From NCBI RefSeq assembly GCF_022968795.1, contig NZ_JALJRB010000003.1:1-64000 (forward strand): DNA of 64,000 nucleotides. The letters are read 5' to 3'. The DNA comes from Desulfatitalea alkaliphila (lineage in GTDB: Bacteria; Desulfobacterota; Desulfobacteria; Desulfobacterales; Desulfosarcinaceae). The notes beneath the pieces were generated by a model. It made no database searches. It was not told where the DNA came from and saw only the letters and a list, made by a program, of their open reading frames with translations. Of this stretch, positions 3,357-13,901 are shown one piece after another. The translations under genes were made by a program, and so were the position numbers. Position 1 is the first letter of the stretch. Each line of letters opens with the position of its first letter.

Positions 3357-4112
3357 TTATGGCGCCGCTTCAACGGCCAGCAGTGCCGCACCCAGGGCGC
3401 CGGTGAATTGGGGTGCTTCCGGAACCAAGATCTCGCGTCCCAACTGCCTTTCCAGCAGCACCCGCATGCACGGGTTGCAGGCCACCCCGCCGGTGAACAC
3501 AACGGCGCCATCGGCCGACACCCTTTGCAACATGCCGGCGGCCCTGCGAACAACGCTCAGGTGAAGCCCGCGGGCGATCTCGCGCCGATCCCGACCCTTG
3601 GCGATCAGGGAAGTGACTTCCGATTCGGCGAAGACCGTGCACATGCTGGAGATGGTCAGGTCCCGCTCGGTCGCCAGCGCCTCGCGACCGAAGGCCGCGA
3701 CCCCGAACCCGAGGGTGCGCGCCATGATCTCCAGGAATTTGCCGGTGCCGGCCGCGCAGCGGTCGTTCATTTCGAATTTCTTCACCCTGCCGTCCGCTTG
3801 CAAGGCGATGGCCTTGCTGTCCTGCCCCCCGATGTCCAGCACGGTGCGCGCCTCGGGAAACGCCTGCCGCACTCCCCGGGCGTGGGCCTTGATTTCCGTA
3901 ACCGTGGGCGCTTCAAAGGAAAGCTCAAAAAGACTGCGACCATAACCGGTGGCCATGATCCGATCGAAGCGCATGGCGGCCAGCAAACGTTTGGCTTCGG
4001 CCATGGGATCGAATCCGGTGTCGGTCTGGGCCCGGTTCACAATGGCGCCCGCGGCGTCCACCACCACTACTTCAATGGAGCGGGAACCGATATCGATGCC
4101 TGCAAATCGCAT
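3357..4112 (-). CDS. BcrA/BadF/HgdC-family ATP-dependent activase (archerase)
   Basis: A 251-residue ASKHA-fold ATPase. Visible signatures are the N-terminal phosphate loop GIDIGSRSIE, a DIGGQDSK motif at 93-100, and the two cluster-ligand cysteines in the usual settings, C119 (DRCAAGTGKF) and C158 (SSMCTVFAESEV). Homodimers of this family hold one [4Fe-4S] cluster between subunits and use ATP hydrolysis to push low-potential electrons into 2-hydroxyacyl-CoA dehydratases, benzoyl-CoA reductases or double-cubane-cluster proteins. It is the only activase in the array, so it is the natural partner of the two YjiM/HgdB-type proteins encoded upstream in the same array. It could also help reduce the corrinoid of the neighbouring fusion protein. 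A 54-nt gap follows the MetH-activation-like gene. Confidence 0.92.
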   Translation of the reverse strand: MRFAGIDIGSRSIEVVVVDAAGAIVNRAQTDTGFDPMAEAKRLLAAMRFDRIMATGYGRSLFELSFEAPTVTEIKAHARGVRQAFPEARTVLDIGGQDSKAIALQADGRVKKFEMNDRCAAGTGKFLEIMARTLGFGVAAFGREALATERDLTISSMCTVFAESEVTSLIAKGRDRREIARGLHLSVVRRAAGMLQRVSADGAVVFTGGVACNPCMRVLLERQLGREILVPEAPQFTGALGAALLAVEAAP

Positions 4113-4166: not shown

Positions 4167-4748
4167 TCAGCAACTTCCAGCCCCCGGCCACACCCCCACT
4201 ACAGCGGTGATGGTTTTCTCCGGCAGCAGAAGGCCGCCGGAGGTGATGTGCAACCCGGGCCATCGCCCCCCGATCAGTTCCACGAAGGGTTTTTGGGCCT
4301 CCAAGCTGAAATCGTGATACCCGGGACTGAAGCGCCGGGTCGTCCGGCCACCGGCGGCGCGGTGGGATCCGCTCGCTTGGCGATCCAGGCTGCGCATGGC
4401 GGTTTCGGCCCAGAAACTGCCCATGCGATCCATCAGGTAGCCTTCCAGACAACGGTTGGCGGCCATGTATTGCCGGACCCGATCACTCAATGGCTGCCCC
4501 AGGGTAACGGCCAGCAGCAGTACCCGCGGACAATCGGCCAAGAGCGCCTGCAGCGCATGACTGTTACCGCTGCAGGGTGCGAAGCGGGTCTCGAAGAACG
4601 CCCGGGTCACCTCCGACTGCCAGCTCAGCAATCCGGCAAGGCCTTCGGCCTCCACCCGGATCTCTTCGGCGCGCGTGAGCAAAATCGGATGGGTGCCGAG
4701 TTTCAAATAGCGACGCAATCCGCCGCCGTTTTCGGTCGTGAAGGTCAT
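4167..4748 (-). CDS. MetH reactivation-domain-like protein
   Basis: A 193-residue protein whose C-terminal part contains RRFSPGYHDFSLEAQKPF followed by a segment containing LHITSGGLLLPEKTITAVVG. This matches the signature of the cobalamin-dependent methionine synthase activation domain (R...PGY, then a hydrophobic strand, then P.K). That domain binds S-adenosylmethionine and re-methylates an inactivated cob(II)alamin. Stand-alone copies usually accompany corrinoid methyltransferase systems. The start codon overlaps the stop of the UroD-corrinoid gene (ATGA), which suggests translational coupling and a role in reactivating that corrinoid protein. The S-adenosylmethionine-binding role is inferred from the family. 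Confidence 0.78.
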   Translation of the reverse strand: MTFTTENGGGLRRYLKLGTHPILLTRAEEIRVEAEGLAGLLSWQSEVTRAFFETRFAPCSGNSHALQALLADCPRVLLLAVTLGQPLSDRVRQYMAANRCLEGYLMDRMGSFWAETAMRSLDRQASGSHRAAGGRTTRRFSPGYHDFSLEAQKPFVELIGGRWPGLHITSGGLLLPEKTITAVVGVWPGAGSC

Positions 4749-6385
4749 CTGCTTGCGCCCTCCCCGGCCCGTAGGTCGGTAATGAGGCCACGAATCAGTT
4801 TCACCGCGGCCACGGCATCGCGGGCATAGCCATCTGCTCCCACCTCGGTGGCGATAACGGCGTTGACCGCAGCGCCGCCCACCACCACCTTCAGATTTTC
4901 GTTGCCGCTGCTTCGCAGCGAGCCGATCAAGGCGGGCAACTGCCGGCGGGCGGCGGTCAAAAAGGCCGACAACCCGATGATCGCGGGTCGGTACCGGGCC
5001 ATCGCCGCAACGAACCGGTCCTTGGACACATCCACTCCCAAATCGATCACCCCGACACCGTTGGCCTCCAGCAGGATCCGCACTAGATCTTTGCCGATCG
5101 CGTGCAAGTCGCCCTGTACGGTGCCGAGCAACACCCGCGGGCCGGCATCGGCACTACCCGGCAGCCTTGTTTTCAGCCGGGCGAACCCCTCATAAAATGC
5201 ATCCACGCTCATCAGGAGCTCAGGCAGATGGCACTGTTTGGCTTCGTAACGGGCACCGGCCTGCCGCATCGCGCGCACCAAACCGCCATCGAGCAGCCGC
5301 AGGGAATCCCGGCCGCCTGCAAGGGCCCGGCCAACCGTTTGCACAGTCGCCGTCGCGTCGCCCCGCGTGACCGCATCGACCAGCGGAGCAAGGTAGGCGG
5401 CGTGGCGACGAATATCCGCCACTGCCTCGCGGCCGCTGTGGATAAAGGCCCTTACATTCTCTATTGGCGTGCCGGGGGGCAAGGCGCAACCGGTGCTCAG
5501 AATGAAATTGGAACGAATGCCCATGGTGGCGGCCAGCTCCCGCGTGGCCGCGCAAACAGTGTGCAATGGGGCCATGGTGACGACCTCAACGGGGTCCAGG
5601 TTGCCGATCATAGCCACCTGCCGGGGAACTTGCGCTTCGACGGTCGGCAACGCCATGCACTGATCGAAACTGATACCGCCGGCGCCGGTCGCCACCATGG
5701 GCGCGAGCAGATCCGAAGTTTCGCCGCAAATGTGCAAGATGGTCTGTCCATCGGACATCAACCCGAACAATTGGCGCAAATAGCGCCCGGCAAACCCGTC
5801 GAAATCCGGAGGCGGCAATAGAGCCGCCAACGGATCGGATATCCAAAGCAAATCGGCGCCGGCGTCCAGCAGTAACCGAGCGTAGTCTTCGGCCATGGCC
5901 GTCGCCTCCACCAGCAGTGCCGAAAGGGCCGCAGGGGCTTCGCGCACCCGGCGCAACGCATTCTGCTCGCCTGTCAATTGGCCGACCACCGTGAAAGGCC
6001 CATACACCAGCGCTGCTATGCGTCGGCGGGGATAAGCGGTACGCATTCGCCGCACCACTTGGCCGTTGAGGGCCATGCGGGGCGCCTTACAGGCGCGCGG
6101 GACACGCACTATACCAGCGGGTGCACAAACGGCGGGCATTTCATCGCTTGCATAACGCACCGGGGCGCCCATGGCTTCGGCTTGTAGGGCAATGTCGCTG
6201 AAACAAAAGAGCAGATCGGCATCCACCATATCGTAATAGCGGCGCATCGCCTCGAACTTAACCGCCTCCTCGTGACACAGTGTGTCGATGCCCTCCGGCA
6301 CCAGTCCGGCGGCGGGCAGGGCATTTATCGGAAACACATGAATACCGGCAAGCCGGTGGGTTACATCTTCTTCGGTAAAAAGCAT
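4745..6385 (-). CDS. UroD-family methyltransferase fused to a corrinoid-binding domain
   Basis: A 546-residue two-part protein. Residues about 1-335 are a UroD/MtaA-type barrel with the likely Zn ligands H218-I-C220 (LHICGETS) and C300 (STGCALPPGTP), as in MtaA/MtbA methylcobamide:thiol methyltransferases. After a helical cap (about 340-410), residues 415-535 form a B12-binding domain with the base-off motif D426-L-H428-A-I-G431, in which His is the lower cobalt ligand, and a GLSAFLTAA strand. Methyltransferase and corrinoid protein are normally separate chains. No substrate-specific first methyltransferase (MtaB, MttB or MtgB type) is visible nearby, so the methyl donor is unknown. It overlaps the reactivation-domain gene by 4 nt and follows the TauE-like gene by 52 nt. 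Confidence 0.88.
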   Translation of the reverse strand: MLFTEEDVTHRLAGIHVFPINALPAAGLVPEGIDTLCHEEAVKFEAMRRYYDMVDADLLFCFSDIALQAEAMGAPVRYASDEMPAVCAPAGIVRVPRACKAPRMALNGQVVRRMRTAYPRRRIAALVYGPFTVVGQLTGEQNALRRVREAPAALSALLVEATAMAEDYARLLLDAGADLLWISDPLAALLPPPDFDGFAGRYLRQLFGLMSDGQTILHICGETSDLLAPMVATGAGGISFDQCMALPTVEAQVPRQVAMIGNLDPVEVVTMAPLHTVCAATRELAATMGIRSNFILSTGCALPPGTPIENVRAFIHSGREAVADIRRHAAYLAPLVDAVTRGDATATVQTVGRALAGGRDSLRLLDGGLVRAMRQAGARYEAKQCHLPELLMSVDAFYEGFARLKTRLPGSADAGPRVLLGTVQGDLHAIGKDLVRILLEANGVGVIDLGVDVSKDRFVAAMARYRPAIIGLSAFLTAARRQLPALIGSLRSSGNENLKVVVGGAAVNAVIATEVGADGYARDAVAAVKLIRGLITDLRAGEGASR

Positions 6386-6437: not shown

Positions 6438-7166
6438 TCAGGTTGCCAGCTCCCGCCAAACCAGAATGATGCCCATGACCATTAACAGAAGATGGGCCAA
6501 GCCCTGGAAGCGTTGGTTGGATATGCGCCTGCAGATCAAGCTCCCGGCGGCAACGCCGGCCAGCATCAGGGGCGCGAGATATATATTCAGGCGGAACAAA
6601 GACCAGGAGAAAAGCCCCATTGACCCATAGGCAACGGCCAGATAGAGGTTGGACAACAGAAAAAACGCTTGCAGGTCGGCCTTGAATGCGAACCGATCCA
6701 TGTGGGTCAAGGCGTTGAGTACGATGATCGGCGGCCCTGCCATGTAAATCGCGCCGCCGAGCAGCCCTGACACCACGCCGGCCGATCCGTTCCACGCCCA
6801 GTGCAATTCGCCGCGCACGCCGTCGGTACGTGCCAGAGACCAGAGAGCGAACCCCATGAGGGTGATGCCGATCACCAATTTCAGAAGCGTGTCCGGCAGT
6901 TGGATGAGCGCATAAAGCCCCAACAGGGCACCGGGCACGAAACCGGCCATTTGCACCGCGATGCGGCGTGGATGCACATGATTGCGCAACTGCGCCAGCA
7001 ACACCAGGTTGATCACCACATTGTAGACGAACAAGAAGGGCACGATCTGCCGCACCGGCCACACAAAGGAGATCAAGGAAACGGCCACGATGGCGAAGCC
7101 GAACCCTGTCAGGCCCATCAGCAGGCTGGCGAGCACAAGGGCTCCCGCCACCACGATCAGTTCCAT
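6438..7166 (-). CDS. TauE/SafE-family membrane transporter
   Basis: A 242-residue hydrophobic protein with about eight predicted membrane segments and the repeated glycine-rich layout of the sulfite exporter TauE/SafE family (N-terminal ELIVVAGALVLASLLMG and a second half containing GVVSGLLGGAIYMAGPPIIV). The family exports sulfite, sulfoacetate or other small organic anions; substrate assignment by family is poor. I start at the ATG at 7166, which overlaps the end of the ABC ATPase gene by 10 nt, so translation is probably coupled. Its position behind a TauABC-type importer suggests it removes a product or by-product of the imported compound. Confidence 0.82.
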   Translation of the reverse strand: MELIVVAGALVLASLLMGLTGFGFAIVAVSLISFVWPVRQIVPFLFVYNVVINLVLLAQLRNHVHPRRIAVQMAGFVPGALLGLYALIQLPDTLLKLVIGITLMGFALWSLARTDGVRGELHWAWNGSAGVVSGLLGGAIYMAGPPIIVLNALTHMDRFAFKADLQAFFLLSNLYLAVAYGSMGLFSWSLFRLNIYLAPLMLAGVAAGSLICRRISNQRFQGLAHLLLMVMGIILVWRELAT

Positions 7167-7912
7167 CCATTCACCACTTCGAGCATTGTATGAATCCGAT
7201 CGCAAAGCGCCAGAAAGGCAGGCGCCCCCTTGTCCCTGGGACGTGGCAGGTCGCAGTTCAGGATGGCCTGGATGCGTCCCGGCGGGCCTTGCATCACCAC
7301 CACCCGGTCGGCGAGCAGGGCGGCCTCCTGGATATCGTGGGTTACGAAAACGATGGTTTTGCGATCCTCCTGCCAGATGCGGATCAATTCCTGCTGCAGC
7401 ACCGTGCGGGTTTGGGCGTCCAGGGCGCCGAAGGGCTCATCCATCAGTAACACTTGGGGATCGGTGGCCAAGGCGCGCGCCACGGCCACCCGCTGTTGCA
7501 TGCCGCCGGACAACTGGGCGGGAAAAGCATGGACCTGCTCGGCAAGACCGACCAAGGCCAGGTAGTGCCGGGCGATGGCGTGCCGTTTGGATTTGGGAAC
7601 CCCCTGGATTTCCAGGCCGAAGGCCACGTTGCGCAACACCGAGCGCCACGGGAAGAGGGTGTAGCGCTGAAACACCACGCAGCGCTGAGCCGATGGCCCT
7701 TCGACCGGTACGCCGTTGAGCAGAATCCGGCCGTGGGTGGCGCGCTCCAGACCGGCGATCAGGCGCAAGGTGGTGGTCTTACCGCACCCCGAGCGGCCCA
7801 CCAGGCAGACCATTTCGTGACGCGCGATGGTCAACGACACATCGGACAAGGCGGTGACTGCCCGGCCGTCGGCGCCGTTGAAACGTTTCGTTACGCGATC
7901 CAGTTCGAGCAT
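7157..7912 (-). CDS. ABC transporter ATPase, TauB/SsuB/NrtD type
   Basis: A 251-residue nucleotide-binding subunit with Walker A GRSGCGKTT, Q-loop (VFQRYTLFPW), ABC signature LSGGMQQR, Walker B VLLMDEPFGALD and the H-loop (FVTHDIQEA). Length and sequence match ATPases of the nitrate/sulfonate/taurine importer class. It is encoded with the permease (55 nt upstream) and the periplasmic binding protein. The family cannot tell nitrate, sulfonates, taurine, thiamine precursors and aromatic sulfonates apart, so the substrate is left open. Confidence 0.93.
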   Translation of the reverse strand: MLELDRVTKRFNGADGRAVTALSDVSLTIARHEMVCLVGRSGCGKTTTLRLIAGLERATHGRILLNGVPVEGPSAQRCVVFQRYTLFPWRSVLRNVAFGLEIQGVPKSKRHAIARHYLALVGLAEQVHAFPAQLSGGMQQRVAVARALATDPQVLLMDEPFGALDAQTRTVLQQELIRIWQEDRKTIVFVTHDIQEAALLADRVVVMQGPPGRIQAILNCDLPRPRDKGAPAFLALCDRIHTMLEVVNGWN

Positions 7913-7967: not shown

Positions 7968-8801
7968 TTATCCGCTGCTTTCCCAAACCAGGCGGGCTTC
8001 CAGGCGCCGGAACCCTTTGTCCATACCAAATCCGATGAGGCCGATGGCGATCATGCCGGCAACGATAATGTCGGCGCGCAGCAGTTCATAAGCATACCAG
8101 ATCAGATACCCCAGCCCGGCAGTGCTGCCCGGCATCATCTCGGCAGCCACCAGGCACATCCAACCGATACCCAGCCCGATCCGCAATCCAGTGACCACCA
8201 TGGGCAGGCTGGCCGGAATGAGCACCTTGTGCAACAGCGCCCAACCGCGCGCGCCCAAGGTACGGGCCGACTCGATATACTCCCGCGGAATACGCCGCAC
8301 GCCTTGAATCGTATTGAGCAATACCGGGAAAAAGGCGCCGATGAAAATGATCACAACGGTTGTGAACTGAATACTGGCGCCGATGAGGCTGGTCTGTAGA
8401 AAGGGGAACCAATCCGCCAGGCTGCGGATGCCGAGCCAAGCCAGGATCAGCGGCACCCAGGCAAGGGGCGGTATGGGCCGCAGGATTTCAACGGATGAAT
8501 CCACCCATCGCTCCACCCGTTGGAAATAGCCCATGGCCAGCCCCAGCGGGATGGCCGTACCGGCAGCCAGAAGGAAGCCGAGTACAACCCGGATCAAGCT
8601 CACGGCCATGTTTTCGATCAAGCTGCCGGTGATCAGGATCTTGGCGGTCGGTTGCATCAACACGCTTGCCACGGCATCCAGACGCGGCAGGATGGTGGGT
8701 TTGTCCAGCCACAAGGCCGTTGCCTGCCACCCAGCGAGCAGCAGAAGCGGCAGCGTCAGCCGATCCAGCCATCCCTTCAAGATAGGGAAACCACGGCTCA
8801 T
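7968..8801 (-). CDS. ABC transporter permease, SsuC/TauC type
   Basis: A 277-residue inner-membrane protein with about six hydrophobic helices and the EAA-loop coupling motif in the stretch ESARTLGARGWALLHKVLIPASLP (typical EAA...G.........I.LP). It belongs to the BPD_transp_1 permeases of sulfonate/nitrate/taurine importers. Its start codon overlaps the stop of the binding-protein gene by 4 nt (ATGA), so the two are translationally coupled. It presumably works as a homodimer with the ATPase encoded next. Confidence 0.92.
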   Translation of the reverse strand: MSRGFPILKGWLDRLTLPLLLLAGWQATALWLDKPTILPRLDAVASVLMQPTAKILITGSLIENMAVSLIRVVLGFLLAAGTAIPLGLAMGYFQRVERWVDSSVEILRPIPPLAWVPLILAWLGIRSLADWFPFLQTSLIGASIQFTTVVIIFIGAFFPVLLNTIQGVRRIPREYIESARTLGARGWALLHKVLIPASLPMVVTGLRIGLGIGWMCLVAAEMMPGSTAGLGYLIWYAYELLRADIIVAGMIAIGLIGFGMDKGFRRLEARLVWESSG

Positions 8802-9967
8802 GCGACAAGACCCCTGGCCTGCAACCGCTGTTGCGCCTTTTTCGAATGCTGAAAATCGAATACGCGATCCCCCAACTCCGATTCCTGAATGCCGTTCAAG
8901 GCACCGTCAAACAGTCCCATATTTTCCATCACACAGGCATAGGCCGCCACGCTTTTGCGCCACGAGTCGCCAGCCACCGTCGTGTAGCGCAGGCTCTGCA
9001 TGGCCACTTCTTCCACGCCGATCGGAATGCCCAGCCATTCCGAACAGGCCCGGGCGGCCAAATCCTTGCGCTTTTGACACACCTCGGCCCCCAGGGTCAG
9101 CAGCATCAACATCTGGGTGACCAGTTCGGGTTCCTGTTGAATGAAGGCCGCGCCGGCTTCAACGGAGCAGCAGGCGTGGTCGTGCCAGCGTCCGGGCGGC
9201 ATGTCCTGCAAGTTGAGGATAAAGCGCCCCACGCCCTGATCGATGGTGACGGCCGGGAAAGGCTGAGCGCCGATGATGCCGTCGGCGATGCGGTTGTTCA
9301 ACGCCGCCACCAAGTTGCCGTGGCCCTTCATGTTGATGAAGCGTATGTCGGCGTCCCTGTTGGAGAGATCTTCGGTGAAAGAGAGTCCTTCATGGGCCAA
9401 GGCCCCGCTGAAAATGATGGACGCCACCGTATCCGGTCCGGGAATTCCAATGGTGAACGGGCGATCCTTCTGTTTGACCGTATCGACGAAACCTTCCCAG
9501 GAGTCGATGGGCTGATCCTTGTGCACCACAAAAACATTGCCGGCGGTTTGCACCGGGCTTACCAATCGCACATCGATACCCCGGTCCACCGACATCAGGA
9601 TGGCCTGGGTACCGCTGATGCCCATGTCGATGCTGCCCTGGGCCATCAATTTCTCCACGTCGGGCCCCTTTTTGGTCGGTATCAACTGCACTGCGGCAGC
9701 GCGAGCGCCATCGACATGGAGTTCATAGCGCCTTCCCTCGATGACGGGTTTTAGAAAAATATTGAACCGCTCCTGAAACAGATCACCATGCTTGGCCGCT
9801 ACGATCAGGGGGGCGTGATGGTCGGATAGGATATAGGCCATACGGATGGTCGGCACCGACCCGCGGGCCACCGGGGGCATCATAAATCCGGCGGCGCCGC
9901 AGGCCGCAGCCCCCAATGCGAACTTACCAGTGGTTTTAAAGAACGTACGTCGACTGATCTTTTTCAT
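8798..9967 (-). CDS. Tat-exported NMT1/NrtA-like ABC substrate-binding protein
   Basis: A 389-residue periplasmic binding protein. The N-terminus holds a twin-arginine signal (SRRTFFK followed by a Gly/Ala-rich hydrophobic stretch ending near PPVARGS). This is unusual for this class and implies folding, possibly with a ligand or cofactor, before export. The mature part has the NMT1/SsuA layout (IRMAYILSDHHAPLIVAAK, then GSIDMGISGTQAIL, then a NMKGHGNLVAALNNRIADG segment). I start at the ATG at 9967 (AAGGAG 5 nt upstream) rather than the longer open frame. It lies 13 nt after the first HgdB/YjiM-like gene, which ties import of its ligand directly to that reductase. Confidence 0.9.
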   Translation of the reverse strand: MKKISRRTFFKTTGKFALGAAACGAAGFMMPPVARGSVPTIRMAYILSDHHAPLIVAAKHGDLFQERFNIFLKPVIEGRRYELHVDGARAAAVQLIPTKKGPDVEKLMAQGSIDMGISGTQAILMSVDRGIDVRLVSPVQTAGNVFVVHKDQPIDSWEGFVDTVKQKDRPFTIGIPGPDTVASIIFSGALAHEGLSFTEDLSNRDADIRFINMKGHGNLVAALNNRIADGIIGAQPFPAVTIDQGVGRFILNLQDMPPGRWHDHACCSVEAGAAFIQQEPELVTQMLMLLTLGAEVCQKRKDLAARACSEWLGIPIGVEEVAMQSLRYTTVAGDSWRKSVAAYACVMENMGLFDGALNGIQESELGDRVFDFQHSKKAQQRLQARGLVA

Positions 9968-9980
9968 CTTGGCTCCTTGA

Positions 9981-11168
9981 TCATTCCTCTTTTCCATCAT
10001 GAAAATCGGGTTGCAACATTTCCAGAAAGGCCTCGATACGCGTGCGCAGCGCCCCCAGATCGTTCTGCCCGTAATCGGTGCACAGGTGCAGCAAGGGGAT
10101 CGGGCCGGTCCGTTCCAAGTGCTTCGCGACAGCGGCGTCCTCGACCATATAGGTGTGGCAGGCGTGCCACGTCAGGTCGACGATCCCGTCGACCCGGTAC
10201 TCGGTCACCAATTCGCTCAGCAGCGCCATGCGCCCCTCATTGGGTGTCATGCAGCTGCAGGGCAATGCCCGATAGCGCCTTGCGATGGCCTGCAGCGGTT
10301 CAGGATCCTCTTCATCCACCAGGGACCAGGCGGATTTCAAGCTGGTGCAATTTTCCATGCCCACGACCACACCGCCAACCGCTTCAATGAGGCGCAGCAC
10401 CTTGTCCGAACCTTTCCCCAGAGGTGTGCCGGTCAATAGAATGCGCGGACGGCCGTTATAAGAGGCGGCTGTCCGAGGCACTTCGCGCAGGGCTTGCACC
10501 AATGCCGCCAGACGTTCGGCATAGGCGTCGGCATCGGGCCAAAAGTTGCGCAGCTCCAGTACCGGCAGCAGATCCCAGCCGGAGACCCGCACAGCGTCAT
10601 CTGCGACATTGACCTTGTGCAGTTGCCGCAAAAGGCGGCGGATGTGATTCTGCACCCGGATCTCGACGGCCAGGGCTTCCCGGGTAATACGGTTGCCTGT
10701 CATCTCCTCCACAAAGGCTGCCAGCCGCACAACCTCGGTGTCCCAGTAATCCTGCGCCCCCTGCAGATTCGGCGCATAGGGCAGCTGCATCACATGCAAC
10801 GGTTTGAGCCGCCGCATCAATTCGTACATCTTTTTCTTGCCGTCGCAGGTAGTCTCTCCGACCACTGCGTGGGAAACGGCGAAAAACGGGCAGGTGCCTG
10901 TGATGGCATAGCCGTAACTGGACTTGATCAGCGGGCAAAGGTTGGCCGGCAAGTCGGCCTCGGCGGCGGCAATGGGATCGTCCCGCTTACCGCAGAGCCC
11001 CACCGGCAGGGCGCCGGCGGCGCGAATGACCTCCGCCGGCGCGAACACGCAGTACACCCCGATGATCTTGCGCCCTCTTTCGCGCGCCTCTTCCAGTTCC
11101 AGCAAACTCTTTTCGGCCATGGCGCTGAATTGGTCCAACAAGCGCCGCACCGCGGCCATGGCCGTCAT
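9981..11168 (-). CDS. Double-cubane-cluster-type protein (YjiM/HgdB family), subunit 1
   Basis: A 395-residue member of the 2-hydroxyacyl-CoA dehydratase D family. Its closest recognisable pattern is the E. coli YjiM/double-cubane-cluster type. Characteristic blocks are GVYCVFAPAEV (C40), ANLCPLIKSSYGY (C78), TCPFF (C93), VGETTCDGKKKMYE (C108), MENCTSLKS (C274), PCSCMTPNEGR (C304, C306), WHACHTY (C337) and LCTDYGQND (C363). Proteins of this group carry Fe-S cubanes (an [Fe8S9] double cubane in the characterised case) and, with an ATP-driven activase, reduce small molecules. There is no acyl-CoA-pathway gene nearby, so I do not call it a dehydratase. Its ATG overlaps the stop of the second paralogue by 4 nt. 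Confidence 0.88.
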   Translation of the reverse strand: MTAMAAVRRLLDQFSAMAEKSLLELEEARERGRKIIGVYCVFAPAEVIRAAGALPVGLCGKRDDPIAAAEADLPANLCPLIKSSYGYAITGTCPFFAVSHAVVGETTCDGKKKMYELMRRLKPLHVMQLPYAPNLQGAQDYWDTEVVRLAAFVEEMTGNRITREALAVEIRVQNHIRRLLRQLHKVNVADDAVRVSGWDLLPVLELRNFWPDADAYAERLAALVQALREVPRTAASYNGRPRILLTGTPLGKGSDKVLRLIEAVGGVVVGMENCTSLKSAWSLVDEEDPEPLQAIARRYRALPCSCMTPNEGRMALLSELVTEYRVDGIVDLTWHACHTYMVEDAAVAKHLERTGPIPLLHLCTDYGQNDLGALRTRIEAFLEMLQPDFHDGKEE

Positions 11169-12445
11169 GGTTTGAGCAGCTCGACGAAGGCCTCCACGCG
11201 CGTCTTGAGCTGACCGGCGTCTTCCATGCCGTAATCGGTCTCGATGCGCAGGCAGGGAATGTTTTCGTCCTCAAGGGCCTTTTCCACCGGAATGGCTTCC
11301 ATCAGGTAGGGCTGGCAGAACTGCAGGCCGTAGTGAATCACGCCGTCGGCGTGATAAGCGCCCACCATTTCCTTGATGTGCATCAAGCGATCCGGATTGG
11401 GGGTGAAGATGGCGCAATCCACCTGAAAGTAGCGATCCACTATGGCCGCCATCAGCTCATCCACGGTGCGGCCCGTGTCGTCGGTCAGATGGCGGGTGCC
11501 CCGCTCGCCTACGCACGACTCCTCGCCGACGATCACCGCGCCGGCGCTCTCGATGATCCAGGGCAGCTTCCAGTTGGGAACGGCCTGGGGACAGCCTGAA
11601 ATCAGAATACGCGGCGTTCCGGCCGCAAACACCCCTTGCTGTTGCGCCACCCGTTTTTCCAACTCGTCGCAGATGGCGTTCACCGATGCCGTGAAGCGCG
11701 CCGGGTTGTCATAAAAGAACACCTGGTTTGCCAAAAGCGCATCCAGGCCGGAGATGGGCGTCGGATCGGCGGCGCGCAGGGAAAGCAGGCGATGCAGGGC
11801 GGCGCGCTTGGCGTTGACCGTGCGGATGGCCTCCTTGAGCGCATCTGCGGTGATGGTCACGCCGGTCAGTACTTCCATGGCCGCCTTGAAGCGATCATAC
11901 TCGGCCTTGAGCAGGGCGCGCCCCTGATCGGACTTCATCTGCGGCAGGTCCATCACATAGAGATTCTCGATCATGTGACCCAAGGATTCATAAGCCTTCT
12001 TCTTGCCGTCGCAGGTGTTTTCGCCCACGACCATGTCGGCGCTCTCCAAGTAGGGACACACTTTTCCGATCTTGAAGCCGAAAGCCGATTTGATCAGGGC
12101 GCAGGTGTTGCGCGGCAGCAGCATTTCCACCTCTTCCATGGCGAAGTCGGCGCCGGAGCACAACCCCACCAGGGTGGCGTTGGCGGCCAGCACGATCTCT
12201 TCGGGCACGAAAACGCAGTAGGAACCGACGATCTTGCGGCCGGCGGCCTTCTCGTCGAGCAACTCCTTGATGCGCAGGCCGTGCACTTCGCTCATGACGA
12301 AATCGAAATAGCCCATCCCTTCGGGCCGGTCCTGCTGGGCCAGATAAATTTCCCGGTAGGCATTGCCCAACACCCCCAACAGGGCATCGTGCGCTTCCAG
12401 GTCAAGACCCAAATCTGTCCACATGGAACGGTAATCGTCACTCAT
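11165..12445 (-). CDS. Double-cubane-cluster-type protein (YjiM/HgdB family), subunit 2
   Basis: A 426-residue paralogue of the next gene, with a 30-40-residue N-terminal extension. Shared blocks are GSYCVFVPEEIVLAANA (C77), GLC (C96), RNTCALIKSAFGFKIG (C115), VCPYLES (C130), VGENTCDGKKKAYE (C145), EESCVGERG (C311) and ETDYGMEDAGQL. It differs at informative places: an extra Cys in ISGCPQAVP (C285), only one Cys in VDCAIFTPNPDR where subunit 1 has CSC, and QFCQPY instead of HACHTY. The two chains are therefore not interchangeable copies, and a heterodimer is likely. AAAGGAG lies 6 nt before the ATG. It follows the IscA-like gene by 17 nt. Confidence 0.88.
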   Translation of the reverse strand: MSDDYRSMWTDLGLDLEAHDALLGVLGNAYREIYLAQQDRPEGMGYFDFVMSEVHGLRIKELLDEKAAGRKIVGSYCVFVPEEIVLAANATLVGLCSGADFAMEEVEMLLPRNTCALIKSAFGFKIGKVCPYLESADMVVGENTCDGKKKAYESLGHMIENLYVMDLPQMKSDQGRALLKAEYDRFKAAMEVLTGVTITADALKEAIRTVNAKRAALHRLLSLRAADPTPISGLDALLANQVFFYDNPARFTASVNAICDELEKRVAQQQGVFAAGTPRILISGCPQAVPNWKLPWIIESAGAVIVGEESCVGERGTRHLTDDTGRTVDELMAAIVDRYFQVDCAIFTPNPDRLMHIKEMVGAYHADGVIHYGLQFCQPYLMEAIPVEKALEDENIPCLRIETDYGMEDAGQLKTRVEAFVELLKP

Positions 12446-12462: not shown

Positions 12463-12774
12463 TCAAGAACAGCAGCTCTCCGAAGAACCACAGCCGCCGC
12501 AGCCGCCATTGGAAGGCAGCGCCGTGGTAACCTTGAAGCCTTCCCCGGCAAAATCAATCTCGATGGGCTGCGCCAGCTCGAGGAACACTTTGTCCACCAC
12601 ATATTGGATGCCAGCGAACTCGAAGGTGGCATCGTCGGGGTGAATCGAATCCAGCGCCAGCGCCATTTGGGATCCGCCGCAGCGGCTGGCCATGAACACG
12701 CGAATGGGTTTGATTTCATTGTCATCGAAAAAGCGCGCGATCCGCTCCTGGGCCGCATCCGTCACATTCAGCAT
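12463..12774 (-). CDS. IscA/HesB-like Fe-S carrier protein
   Basis: A 103-residue A-type carrier-like protein. The N-terminal Cys sits in SRCGGSQMAL (C32), and the C-terminal tail is a Cys-rich cluster GGCGGCGSSESCCS, an expanded version of the usual CGCG tail. The start is the ATG at 12774 with AAGGAG 9 nt upstream; a longer open frame to 12870 has no support. Placement directly before the two cluster proteins suggests it inserts or shuttles iron-sulfur clusters for them. The role is inferred from the family and the location. Confidence 0.8.
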   Translation of the reverse strand: MLNVTDAAQERIARFFDDNEIKPIRVFMASRCGGSQMALALDSIHPDDATFEFAGIQYVVDKVFLELAQPIEIDFAGEGFKVTTALPSNGGCGGCGSSESCCS

Positions 12775-12970
12775 GATTGCTACTCCTTGCAGTACTCCCC
12801 GAATGCAGTGGGGATTAATCAACATTGATACTTCACTGATACAGAACAGCGGGGTCTGCACCCAGGGCACAACAAGCCCCGCATCTCAGGCAATTGGATT
12901 CGAAGCCGCGTCGTTGATAATGGCTTCAATCAGAGGTGCATGAAATGAAATGGCGGTATCGGTTCGATAC

Positions 12971-13459
12971 CTATGCCTGTTCGCCAACCAACCCGCTGAA
13001 GATCACTCGCAAATCCCTTTCTCTTACAGATGACAAGGGGTCGTAATCATCTTCCTTGAAATCCGGTGCGACATCCGCCATGGCTGCATTGAGCGCCTTG
13101 CCTTCCAAGGCCAGTGCGGTGCAGCGCTCTTTGACTTGCGCCGCGCTCAATTCCCGGTTGTTTTCGATCCAGCGGTGGCAATCGTCATGACTTCCCACGT
13201 AGAGCAAATAGAGCTGTCGGCGGTGCTTGTAGGTCACCAGGCGGTAGCCGCTGCCCAGGTCGTACTTCATCACCCCCTTGATGCGCAGCTCGCCGTGCTT
13301 GGTGGTGGTGCCGACGCGATCCGGCACGATTTCGCCCGATCGCATGCGCGCTACAATATCCTCGGCCCGGGCCGCGGCAAGGGCCGCTTTTTTGCCTGAA
13401 CGCTGCAGTTGCTGCAACCCTTTGAAAAACTTTCGATCGAGGTATACCTTTTCAATCAT
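12971..13459 (-). CDS. RelE/ParE-superfamily-like protein
   Basis: A 162-residue protein. The middle part (GTTTKHGELRIKGVMKYDLGSG, then YRLVTYKHRRQLYLLYVGSHDDCHRWIENN) resembles the RelE fold of mRNA-interferase toxins: beta-strands with a basic YR...K.R pattern and a conserved HDDCHRW block. The N-terminal helix region EKVYLDRKFFKGLQQLQRSGKK fits too. A C-terminal extension of about 50 acidic/polar residues is not part of the usual fold. No antitoxin-like gene lies next to it. The start at 13459 has a GGGG-containing site upstream. It sits inside the Hdr/double-cubane array with a 196-nt gap after it, so it may be an insertion rather than a functional part. Confidence 0.55.
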   Translation of the reverse strand: MIEKVYLDRKFFKGLQQLQRSGKKAALAAARAEDIVARMRSGEIVPDRVGTTTKHGELRIKGVMKYDLGSGYRLVTYKHRRQLYLLYVGSHDDCHRWIENNRELSAAQVKERCTALALEGKALNAAMADVAPDFKEDDYDPLSSVRERDLRVIFSGLVGEQA

Positions 13460-13493
13460 GGTCCCCTTCCATGCCGGAAATTCCGGCGTACCG

Positions 13494-13901
13494 TTACATG
13501 GTCGTAATCGATTCCGCAATTTCGTCCTGTGCGCTGATGACCGGGCAGGCATCCACGCAGGCCCGGCAACCGGTGCACCGATCCATATCTATGGAACGGG
13601 CGCGCTTGCGCACCTGCACGCGAAAACGCCCTGCCCGACCGGCAACGCGCTCCACATCGGCGCAGGTCACCAATTCGATATTGGGATGCCGCCCGGTGGC
13701 CACCAGCTGCGGGGAGAGGATGCACATGGAGCAGTCGATGGTGGGAAAAGTTTTGTCCAACTGCCCCATGGCACCGCCGATGGCCGGTGTCTTCTCGACC
13801 AAGTAAACGAGAAAACCGGAATCGGCCAAATCCAAGGCGGCCTGTATGCCGGCGACACCACCGCCCACGATCATGACGGCACCCGTTGTTTTTATCTCCA
13901 T
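13494..13901 (-). pseudogene. Truncated HdrA-like protein (HdrA stub)
   Basis: A 135-residue piece matching the interior of HdrA. It has the Rossmann start VMIVGGGVAGIQAALDLAD, the LVEKTPAIGGAMGQLDKTFPT block, DCSMCILSPQLV, and the first ferredoxin-like motif CTGCRACVDACPV, after which it ends (ESITTM). Full HdrA proteins are several hundred residues and continue with the rest of the FAD domain and more ferredoxin motifs; neither follows here. GGGAG precedes the start, and the frame has no internal stop. It is either a decayed remnant or a minimised electron-transfer stub. Neighbouring MvhD- and HdrD-like genes show it belongs with this module. Confidence 0.72.

Follow-up and report, generated by a model that had tools for sequence, protein, structure and literature searches.

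The first 64,000 nt of contig NZ_JALJRB010000003.1 of Desulfatitalea alkaliphila, the whole stretch analysed here and called the window below, carry on the minus strand two adjacent genes, A (11165–12445, 426 aa) and B (9981–11168, 395 aa), which encode double-cubane-cluster proteins (DCCPs) of type I and type II, respectively. We cautiously favour the reading that A and B are each a complete double-cubane reductase, one from each of two ancient types, probably co-transcribed and served by one shared activase, each DCCP most probably forming its own homodimer. The A–B pair is real and recurrent and is probably functionally coupled, and two complete reductases are most likely, over a heteromer. 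Loci that join the two old types recur, mostly with a single activase gene, and in two families a cassette that includes gene B is placed between the type I gene and the activase gene.

Two double-cubane proteins of different lineage

The two open reading frames (ORFs) overlap by 4 nt (ATGA), the stop codon of A lying over the start of B, and their products are 38.5% identical across 374 aa. The tandem of HGD-D/DCCP paralogues with a 4-nt overlap that had been described in an earlier note on this DNA is thus borne out, and the Cys blocks quoted there (YCVF, CALIK/CPLIK, CPY/CPF and TCDGKKK) are all found in A and B. Both proteins lie far over the 350 bit cut-off of the double_cubane model NF040772 (A 466.2 bits, B 459.3 bits) and both match PF06050, so that their resemblance is not a matter of chance. 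With phmmer, A matches the DCCP of structure 7yyl over residues 4–425 (450.1 bits). The AlphaFold2 model of B (pLDDT 92.8) finds DCCP chain 7yzm_A as its top fold match (Z 51.2, rmsd 1.5, 376 residues), followed by BzdN (Z 45.0) and HadC (Z 44.2), and is farther from the putative BzdO (Z 33.8) and HadB (Z 32.9) chains, which were assigned as catalytic subunits by their length and chain letter; the structure model of A (pLDDT 46.7, built from 5 sequences) was left unused.

Phylogenetic trees made with FastTree (199 and 232 rows) and IQ-TREE (71 rows) all place A with DCCPch, the protein of Carboxydothermus hydrogenoformans (type I), and B with YjiM of Escherichia coli (type II). The IQ-TREE analysis, a quick search without bootstrap that gave a long-branch warning for rows including the type II rows of loci L054 and L202, supports the type I and type II clades with SH-aLRT values of 98 and 100 (L-numbers denote fetched stretches, or loci, and G-numbers genomes). 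In the 199-row FastTree tree the node uniting DCCPch with the clade of A has a support of 0.169, rising to 0.97 one node deeper, and that uniting YjiM with B has 0.96; in the 232-row tree the two clades have supports of 1.0 and 0.999 and the node joining types I and II has 0.419. A local gene duplication as the source of A and B was rejected, as they fall in separate clades that hold DCCPch and YjiM, and on this phylogenetic evidence the tandem is one of two ancient DCCP types brought together, with no recent duplication.

Six Cys residues are conserved in A (C77, C115, C145, C311, C344 and C377) and in B (C40, C78, C108, C274, C304 and C337). The six columns are common to A, B, DCCPch, YjiM and BzdN and hold Cys in 197 to 199 of the 199 alignment rows, while HadC is without two of the six. 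In BzdN six Cys residues are the ligands of an [8Fe-9S] cluster, and BzdO has three Cys and a single [4Fe-4S] cluster (PMC11971306, section 8); the conservation of the six columns and their retention in BzdN suggest that they hold the [8Fe-9S] ligands in A and B as well. In loci with both types, all 33 type I rows and all 34 type II rows keep the six, bar gaps in partial rows and one V, which occurs in a fragment (L252).

From differences in Cys positions the earlier note had suggested a division of labour between the two chains. The differences themselves are present (B has CSC where A has a single Cys, and HACHTY where A has QFCQPY, while ISGCP is found in A), but they lose their weight as functional asymmetry, since no differing position is among the six conserved Cys and both chains hold the full set. 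The Q-P of QFCQPY is a type I signature and the H-T of HACHTY a type II signature, around a Cys that is itself conserved in both proteins, and the remaining differences are variable sites outside the six, with frequencies that are broadly alike in paired and unpaired rows. Since the differing Cys lie outside the six and recur in unpaired relatives, we see in the alignment no sign of two unequal cluster sites or of ligand loss in the manner of BzdNO and HadBC. Two more specific candidates were rejected. A lost ligand in A, which has one Cys where B and DCCPch have CxC, is contradicted by the first Cys being present in 199 of 199 rows and the second in 92 of 199; and the Cys of ISGCP (C285 of A) is no pair-specific ligand, since among type I rows its column holds Cys in 28 of the 33 that are paired and 35 of the 37 that are unpaired, and among type II rows in 98 of 149. 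C285 aligns with BzdN Ser239 (a residue number deduced from where the printed alignment starts), a residue that lines the channel leading to the cluster (PMC11971306, section 8). A tblastn search of A and B against 185 stretches, part of the window included, found no internal stop codon that would indicate selenocysteine in these DCCPs, the last 12 alignment columns being left out.

The cassette and its operon

The genes around A and B are arranged on the minus strand in the order HdrCB-MvhD-MvhD-HdrA-fragment, HesB-like, A, B, substrate-binding protein, permease, ATPase, TauE, UroD/B12, MetH-activation-like and activase. The segment from B to the MetH-activation-like gene, with TauE as an optional member, constitutes a cassette that sits exactly between the type I gene and the activase gene in two families. 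In three genomes of the same genus as the window (G002, G005 and G009; loci L069, L084 and L086) the activase gene directly follows type I, and in G229, a member of another family (L220), the order is YedF-A-B-substrate-binding protein-permease-ATPase-UroD/B12-MetH-activation-like-activase, whereas in its congener G274 A stands directly before the activase gene, with yedF and selD nearby. These present-day gene orders suggest that the cassette was inserted between A and the activase gene and, because the cassette with B sits between A and the activase of A, the two DCCPs probably share that activase. The cassette also occurs alone, in Desulfatibacillum alkenivorans and Desulfatibacillum MAG7, where type I is elsewhere in the genome on another contig; no activase match was found in the fetched stretches of these Desulfatibacillum cassettes (L089/L140 and L139/L238). 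TauE is present in the D. alkenivorans cassette and has no match in those of L139 and L220. When 389 genomes of the order were surveyed for the UroD/B12 fusion (E-value 1e-70, up to 3 candidates scored per genome), it was found in four, all of which carry a copy inside a type II cassette.

Directly downstream of B, gene 8798–10000 encodes the substrate-binding protein of an NMT1/SsuA-like ATP-binding cassette (ABC) importer (PF13379, 79 bits); it scores 50.9 bits with SsuA_fam, under the cut-off, has a weak match to SsuA structure 3uif (E-value 0.0014), and its N-terminus has a twin-arginine look, as judged by eye. The permease (7968–8801) matches PF00528 and, under the cut-offs, NF040733 SaoP (173.1 bits) and TauC (144 bits), and the taurine/nitrate-type ATPase (7157–7912) matches PF00005 and, again under the cut-off, a taurine ABC ATPase model (254.8 bits). 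A TauE/SafE-family membrane protein (6438–7205; PF01925, 95.8 bits) is followed by a fusion of a UroD methyltransferase domain with corrinoid-binding domains (4745–6385; PF01208, PF02607 and PF02310), which matches the corrinoid proteins 1y80 and 2i2x and the methyltransferase MtaA (4ay7), and so resembles MtaA together with MtaC-like corrinoid proteins; it scores 114.9 bits with mtaA_cmuA against a cut-off of 235.4, and we take its architecture to be CmuA-like. The next product (4167–4748, 193 aa) has no match in Pfam or NCBIfam, although a profile of three homologues matches methionine synthase 1j6r_A (E-value 8.5e-18), which makes it a MetH reactivation-domain-like protein. The last gene of the series (3357–4112) encodes an ATP-dependent activase of the HgdC/YjiL type, or DCCP reductase (TIGR00241, 210.9 bits against a cut-off of 125.4; PF01869), and is the sole one recognised at this locus.

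Directly upstream of A lies a gene for an IscA/HesB-like Fe-S assembly protein (12463–12870) that scores 84.7 bits with NF038090 (IscA_HesB_Se), whose cut-off is 85, and has a Gly/Cys-rich C-terminus; a HesB gene is also found upstream of type I in the same-genus loci L084, L086 and L087. Its neighbour (12971–13552, minus strand) recurs as a protein of 160–190 aa in several same-genus genomes and has a sub-threshold match to ParE_like (21.5 against 24.4 bits). The HdrA gene (13494–13901, minus strand) encodes 135 aa, comprising an FAD-binding start and one Fer4 motif, where G005 and G009 encode an HdrA of 1010 aa; a short form of 135 aa is also seen in L049 (D. alkenivorans).

We propose that the activase would spend ATP to transfer electrons to the [8Fe-9S] clusters of the two DCCPs. 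B would be the reductase of the inserted cassette, acting on a small organo-sulfur or organo-selenium anion that would be imported by the SsuA/NMT1-type transporter and then reduced; a methyl group would be moved through the UroD/corrinoid fusion, which the MetH-activation-like protein would keep active, and the TauE-type protein may be the exporter of the cassette. A would be the resident reductase, in an operon with the upstream Hdr/MvhD electron module and the HesB-like protein, and would supply the activase. The importer is of the SsuA/NMT1 class, with no cut-off of a named family reached, and our best guess at the process is a corrinoid methyl transfer from a small imported sulfur or selenium compound.

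Distribution, linkage and alternative readings

The same 389 genomes were surveyed for the two DCCP types, with up to four candidates scored per genome; the type I matches include fragments and not all genomes are complete, and the single counts are accordingly to be read as lower bounds. Type I was found in 120 genomes and type II in 81, with both in 49, type I only in 71, type II only in 32 and neither in 237 (odds ratio 5.1, Fisher P 7e-10, uncorrected for relatedness). Among 35 named type II genomes, the author's choice from 80 loci, a full-length type I match of at least 45% is present in 12 and absent from 23. Where a genome carries both types they are no more than 12 kb apart in 27 of 49 cases. 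We also compared 193 fetched stretches including the window, 189 of which are distinct after four duplicates are set aside; in this set, which is biased because it was picked for DCCP matches, both types occur in 33, type I only in 36, type II only in 112 and neither in 8. In one same-genus locus (L106 8944–10240, G007) the type I DCCP is split into two ORFs, by a frameshift or an assembly error.

The gene orders of the two-type loci vary (I-activase-II, I-II, II-I, II-activase-I and divergent), yet exactly one activase gene is recognised in 29 of the 33. Two have two matches, those of L237 being apparently pieces of one gene, and in the other two (L059 and L061) no activase match was found within the fetched stretch. 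On the tree the linkage state of type II changes 19 times, with 34 linked and 61 unlinked rows, against a mean of 28 when the states are shuffled. The 19 changes and the varied orders indicate that types I and II were joined repeatedly and independently, which argues for a shared function and is as likely to reflect a shared activase, and makes no case for obligate subunits. Since so many genomes carry one type only, an obligate A:B heteromer appears unlikely as a rule. The dedicated pair proposed in the earlier note stands as a recurrent functional pair, whose window-like order is seen again in G229, and is unlikely as an obligate heteromer, the two clades also holding DCCPch, a homodimer, and YjiM, respectively.

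An A:B heterodimer, in which each chain would hold a complete [8Fe-9S] cluster, one serving as an electron store and the other as the reaction site, with one activase for both, is nevertheless a reading to be weighed, and we consider it unlikely. It would account for the 4-nt overlap, for the same adjacent order in G229, for the adjacent I-II pairs of L054, L061 and L227, for the close linkage in over half of the genomes that carry both types, and for the single activase of most two-type loci, and BzdNO sets a precedent for a double-cubane chain inside a heterodimer (PMC11971306). Against it, each type is alone in many genomes, the type II partners come from several distant branches, B and A are on different contigs in D. 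alkenivorans and Desulfatibacillum MAG7, and both chains keep all six Cys, unlike HadC with its lost ligands or the three-Cys BzdO (as given in PMC11971306). Its fuller version, in which a heterodimer of two complete subunits of different lineage and one activase would act together with the corrinoid methyltransferase to reduce a methylated selenium or sulfur compound that has been imported, is slightly more unlikely still; if true, such a protein would be a missing link from the homodimeric DCCP to BzdNO, with both chains still carrying [8Fe-9S].

The two other readings give B, or both types, a different task. It is quite improbable that only type I and the activase form a DCCP system and that B is chiefly a reductive activator of the UroD/B12 corrinoid in place of Ram/RACE, as might be suggested by the low-potential cluster set of B, by the joint travel of B and UroD/B12, which in the window and L220 are accompanied by the MetH-activation-like protein, and by the family tables, in which none of the scanned operon genes is named Ram/RACE. 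Type II genes accompanied by an ABC importer and no UroD/B12 match (L152, L161, L202 and L230), or by a match to neither (L146 and L148), show that the corrinoid cannot be the general target of type II, and the MetH-activation-like protein already provides a route of reactivation. That both types serve selenium metabolism generally, for example by making or recovering selenide for SelD, with the window operon as a selenium-salvage variant, seems to us improbable. DCCPs have been called provisionally linked to selenium metabolism in the portion of PMC10418091 drawn on here, and such genes were placed in selenium gene clusters there and in part of PMC5322559. A yedF-like gene (blastp against the L220 YedF with an E-value no higher than 1e-10, in stretches of unequal length) was found near 26 of the 181 distinct DCCP loci, made up of 10 of the 33 with both types, 7 of the 36 with type I only and 9 of the 112 with type II only, and selD near 11, as opposed to none of eight other loci. 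The family model was checked for the L220 YedF alone (215.6 bits against 110), which is encoded directly before A-B. Furthermore, of 14 control genomes, the two that match NF040772 are also the two that match selD, and the window genome carries selB, selD and yedF. The 64 kb window itself, on the other hand, has no match for yedF, selD, selA or selB, yedF goes unmatched at 155 of the 181 DCCP loci, within fetched stretches of varying length, and selD is present in 337 of 389 genomes, so that its co-occurrence at the genome level says little. Matches to selB near DCCP loci (26–30% identity) were not trusted and were left out of the argument. We note that in two genomes of genus g46 yedF is directly before or divergent from type I (L220 7133–7729 and L269 2324–2911), with selD nearby in one of them.

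Several points also weigh against our preferred reading of two complete reductases with a shared activase. Repeated clustering with one activase is equally expected from a heterodimer, and all four genomes with the UroD/B12 cassette also carry type I, which fits a dependence of B on A. The adjacent I-II pair of L061 has no activase match in 19.5 kb, and a second UroD/B12 fusion (46%) on contig C35 of G095 (L268 8679–10253) lies in 19 kb of fetched sequence without any DCCP match. The arrangement ascribed above to cassette insertion could possibly have arisen by homologous recombination through the A and activase flanks. As for the substrate, we are guessing: sulfonate binders are matched weakly by the binding protein, and no ABC or methyltransferase gene reaches the cut-off of a named NCBI family.

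Comparison with known systems

The heterodimers BzdNO and HadBC consist of paralogues of the same superfamily, so that heteromers are not new in themselves. The earlier note took the characterised double-cubane proteins to be homodimers, which is right for DCCP and fails for BzdNO, a heterodimer with one double-cubane subunit (PMC11971306). A and B each keep six cluster Cys where BzdO keeps three (PMC11971306), and both score far below the cut-offs of the HadC model (B 90.6 and A 104.2 bits against 700) and the BzdN model (B 86.9 and A 73 bits against 453.8). Subunits of such heterodimers would be expected to occur together, whereas 71 + 32 of the 389 genomes have one of the two types only. 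Elsewhere in the window genome (contig C12; L035 7672–10169) another HGD-D pair stands in tandem, with an activase gene after it. The second chain of this pair is nearest to HadB (289.2 bits, below cut-off), so that the pair has the appearance of a genuine heteromeric CoA dehydratase or reductase.

The window locus also bears a likeness to the Type 1 MGCs which, in the portions of the literature drawn on here, comprise corrinoid methyltransferase genes, many of them with a DCCP and a selenium link. A Type 1 MGC has several Mlps, a separate corrinoid protein and Ram/RACE, whereas in the window there is a single UroD/B12 fusion, together with an ABC importer and TauE, and none of the operon genes scanned is named Ram/RACE. 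Table 1 of PMC5322559, in its entries on functional partners of the selenium genes of Slackia, includes two '2-hydroxyglutaryl-CoA dehydratase subunit' genes and one activase; this entry may be the same pattern of two DCCPs with one activase, printed already without being discussed as such in the part drawn on here, and our impression, from searches of an open-licence library, is that the pattern has received no discussion. With yedF and selD lying close to some of the DCCP loci, the role in selenium metabolism that has been suggested can be put to the test.

For B the known system to compare is YjiM-YjiL of E. coli: YjiM has all six Cys and shares a clade with B, and strain MG1655 has one YjiM beside one YjiL, with no second DCCP annotated in a 20-kb stretch. 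The DCCP/DCCP-R system of C. hydrogenoformans (PDB 6ENO, 7YYL and 7YZM) shares with the window the protein family, the fold (as modelled for B), the six Cys and an HgdC-type activase, and its DCCP is in the clade of A. According to a figure legend of PMC11971306, the biological function of DCCPs is unknown. The DCCP of C. hydrogenoformans is a homodimer (PMC11971306), whereas in the window both types share an operon with a single activase gene and the importer/corrinoid cassette; the window thereby suggests methylated sulfur or selenium compounds as concrete candidates for physiological substrates, together with the hypothesis of a shared activase, and the named strain Desulfatibacillum alkenivorans DSM 16219, which carries the cassette, is one in which the idea is testable.

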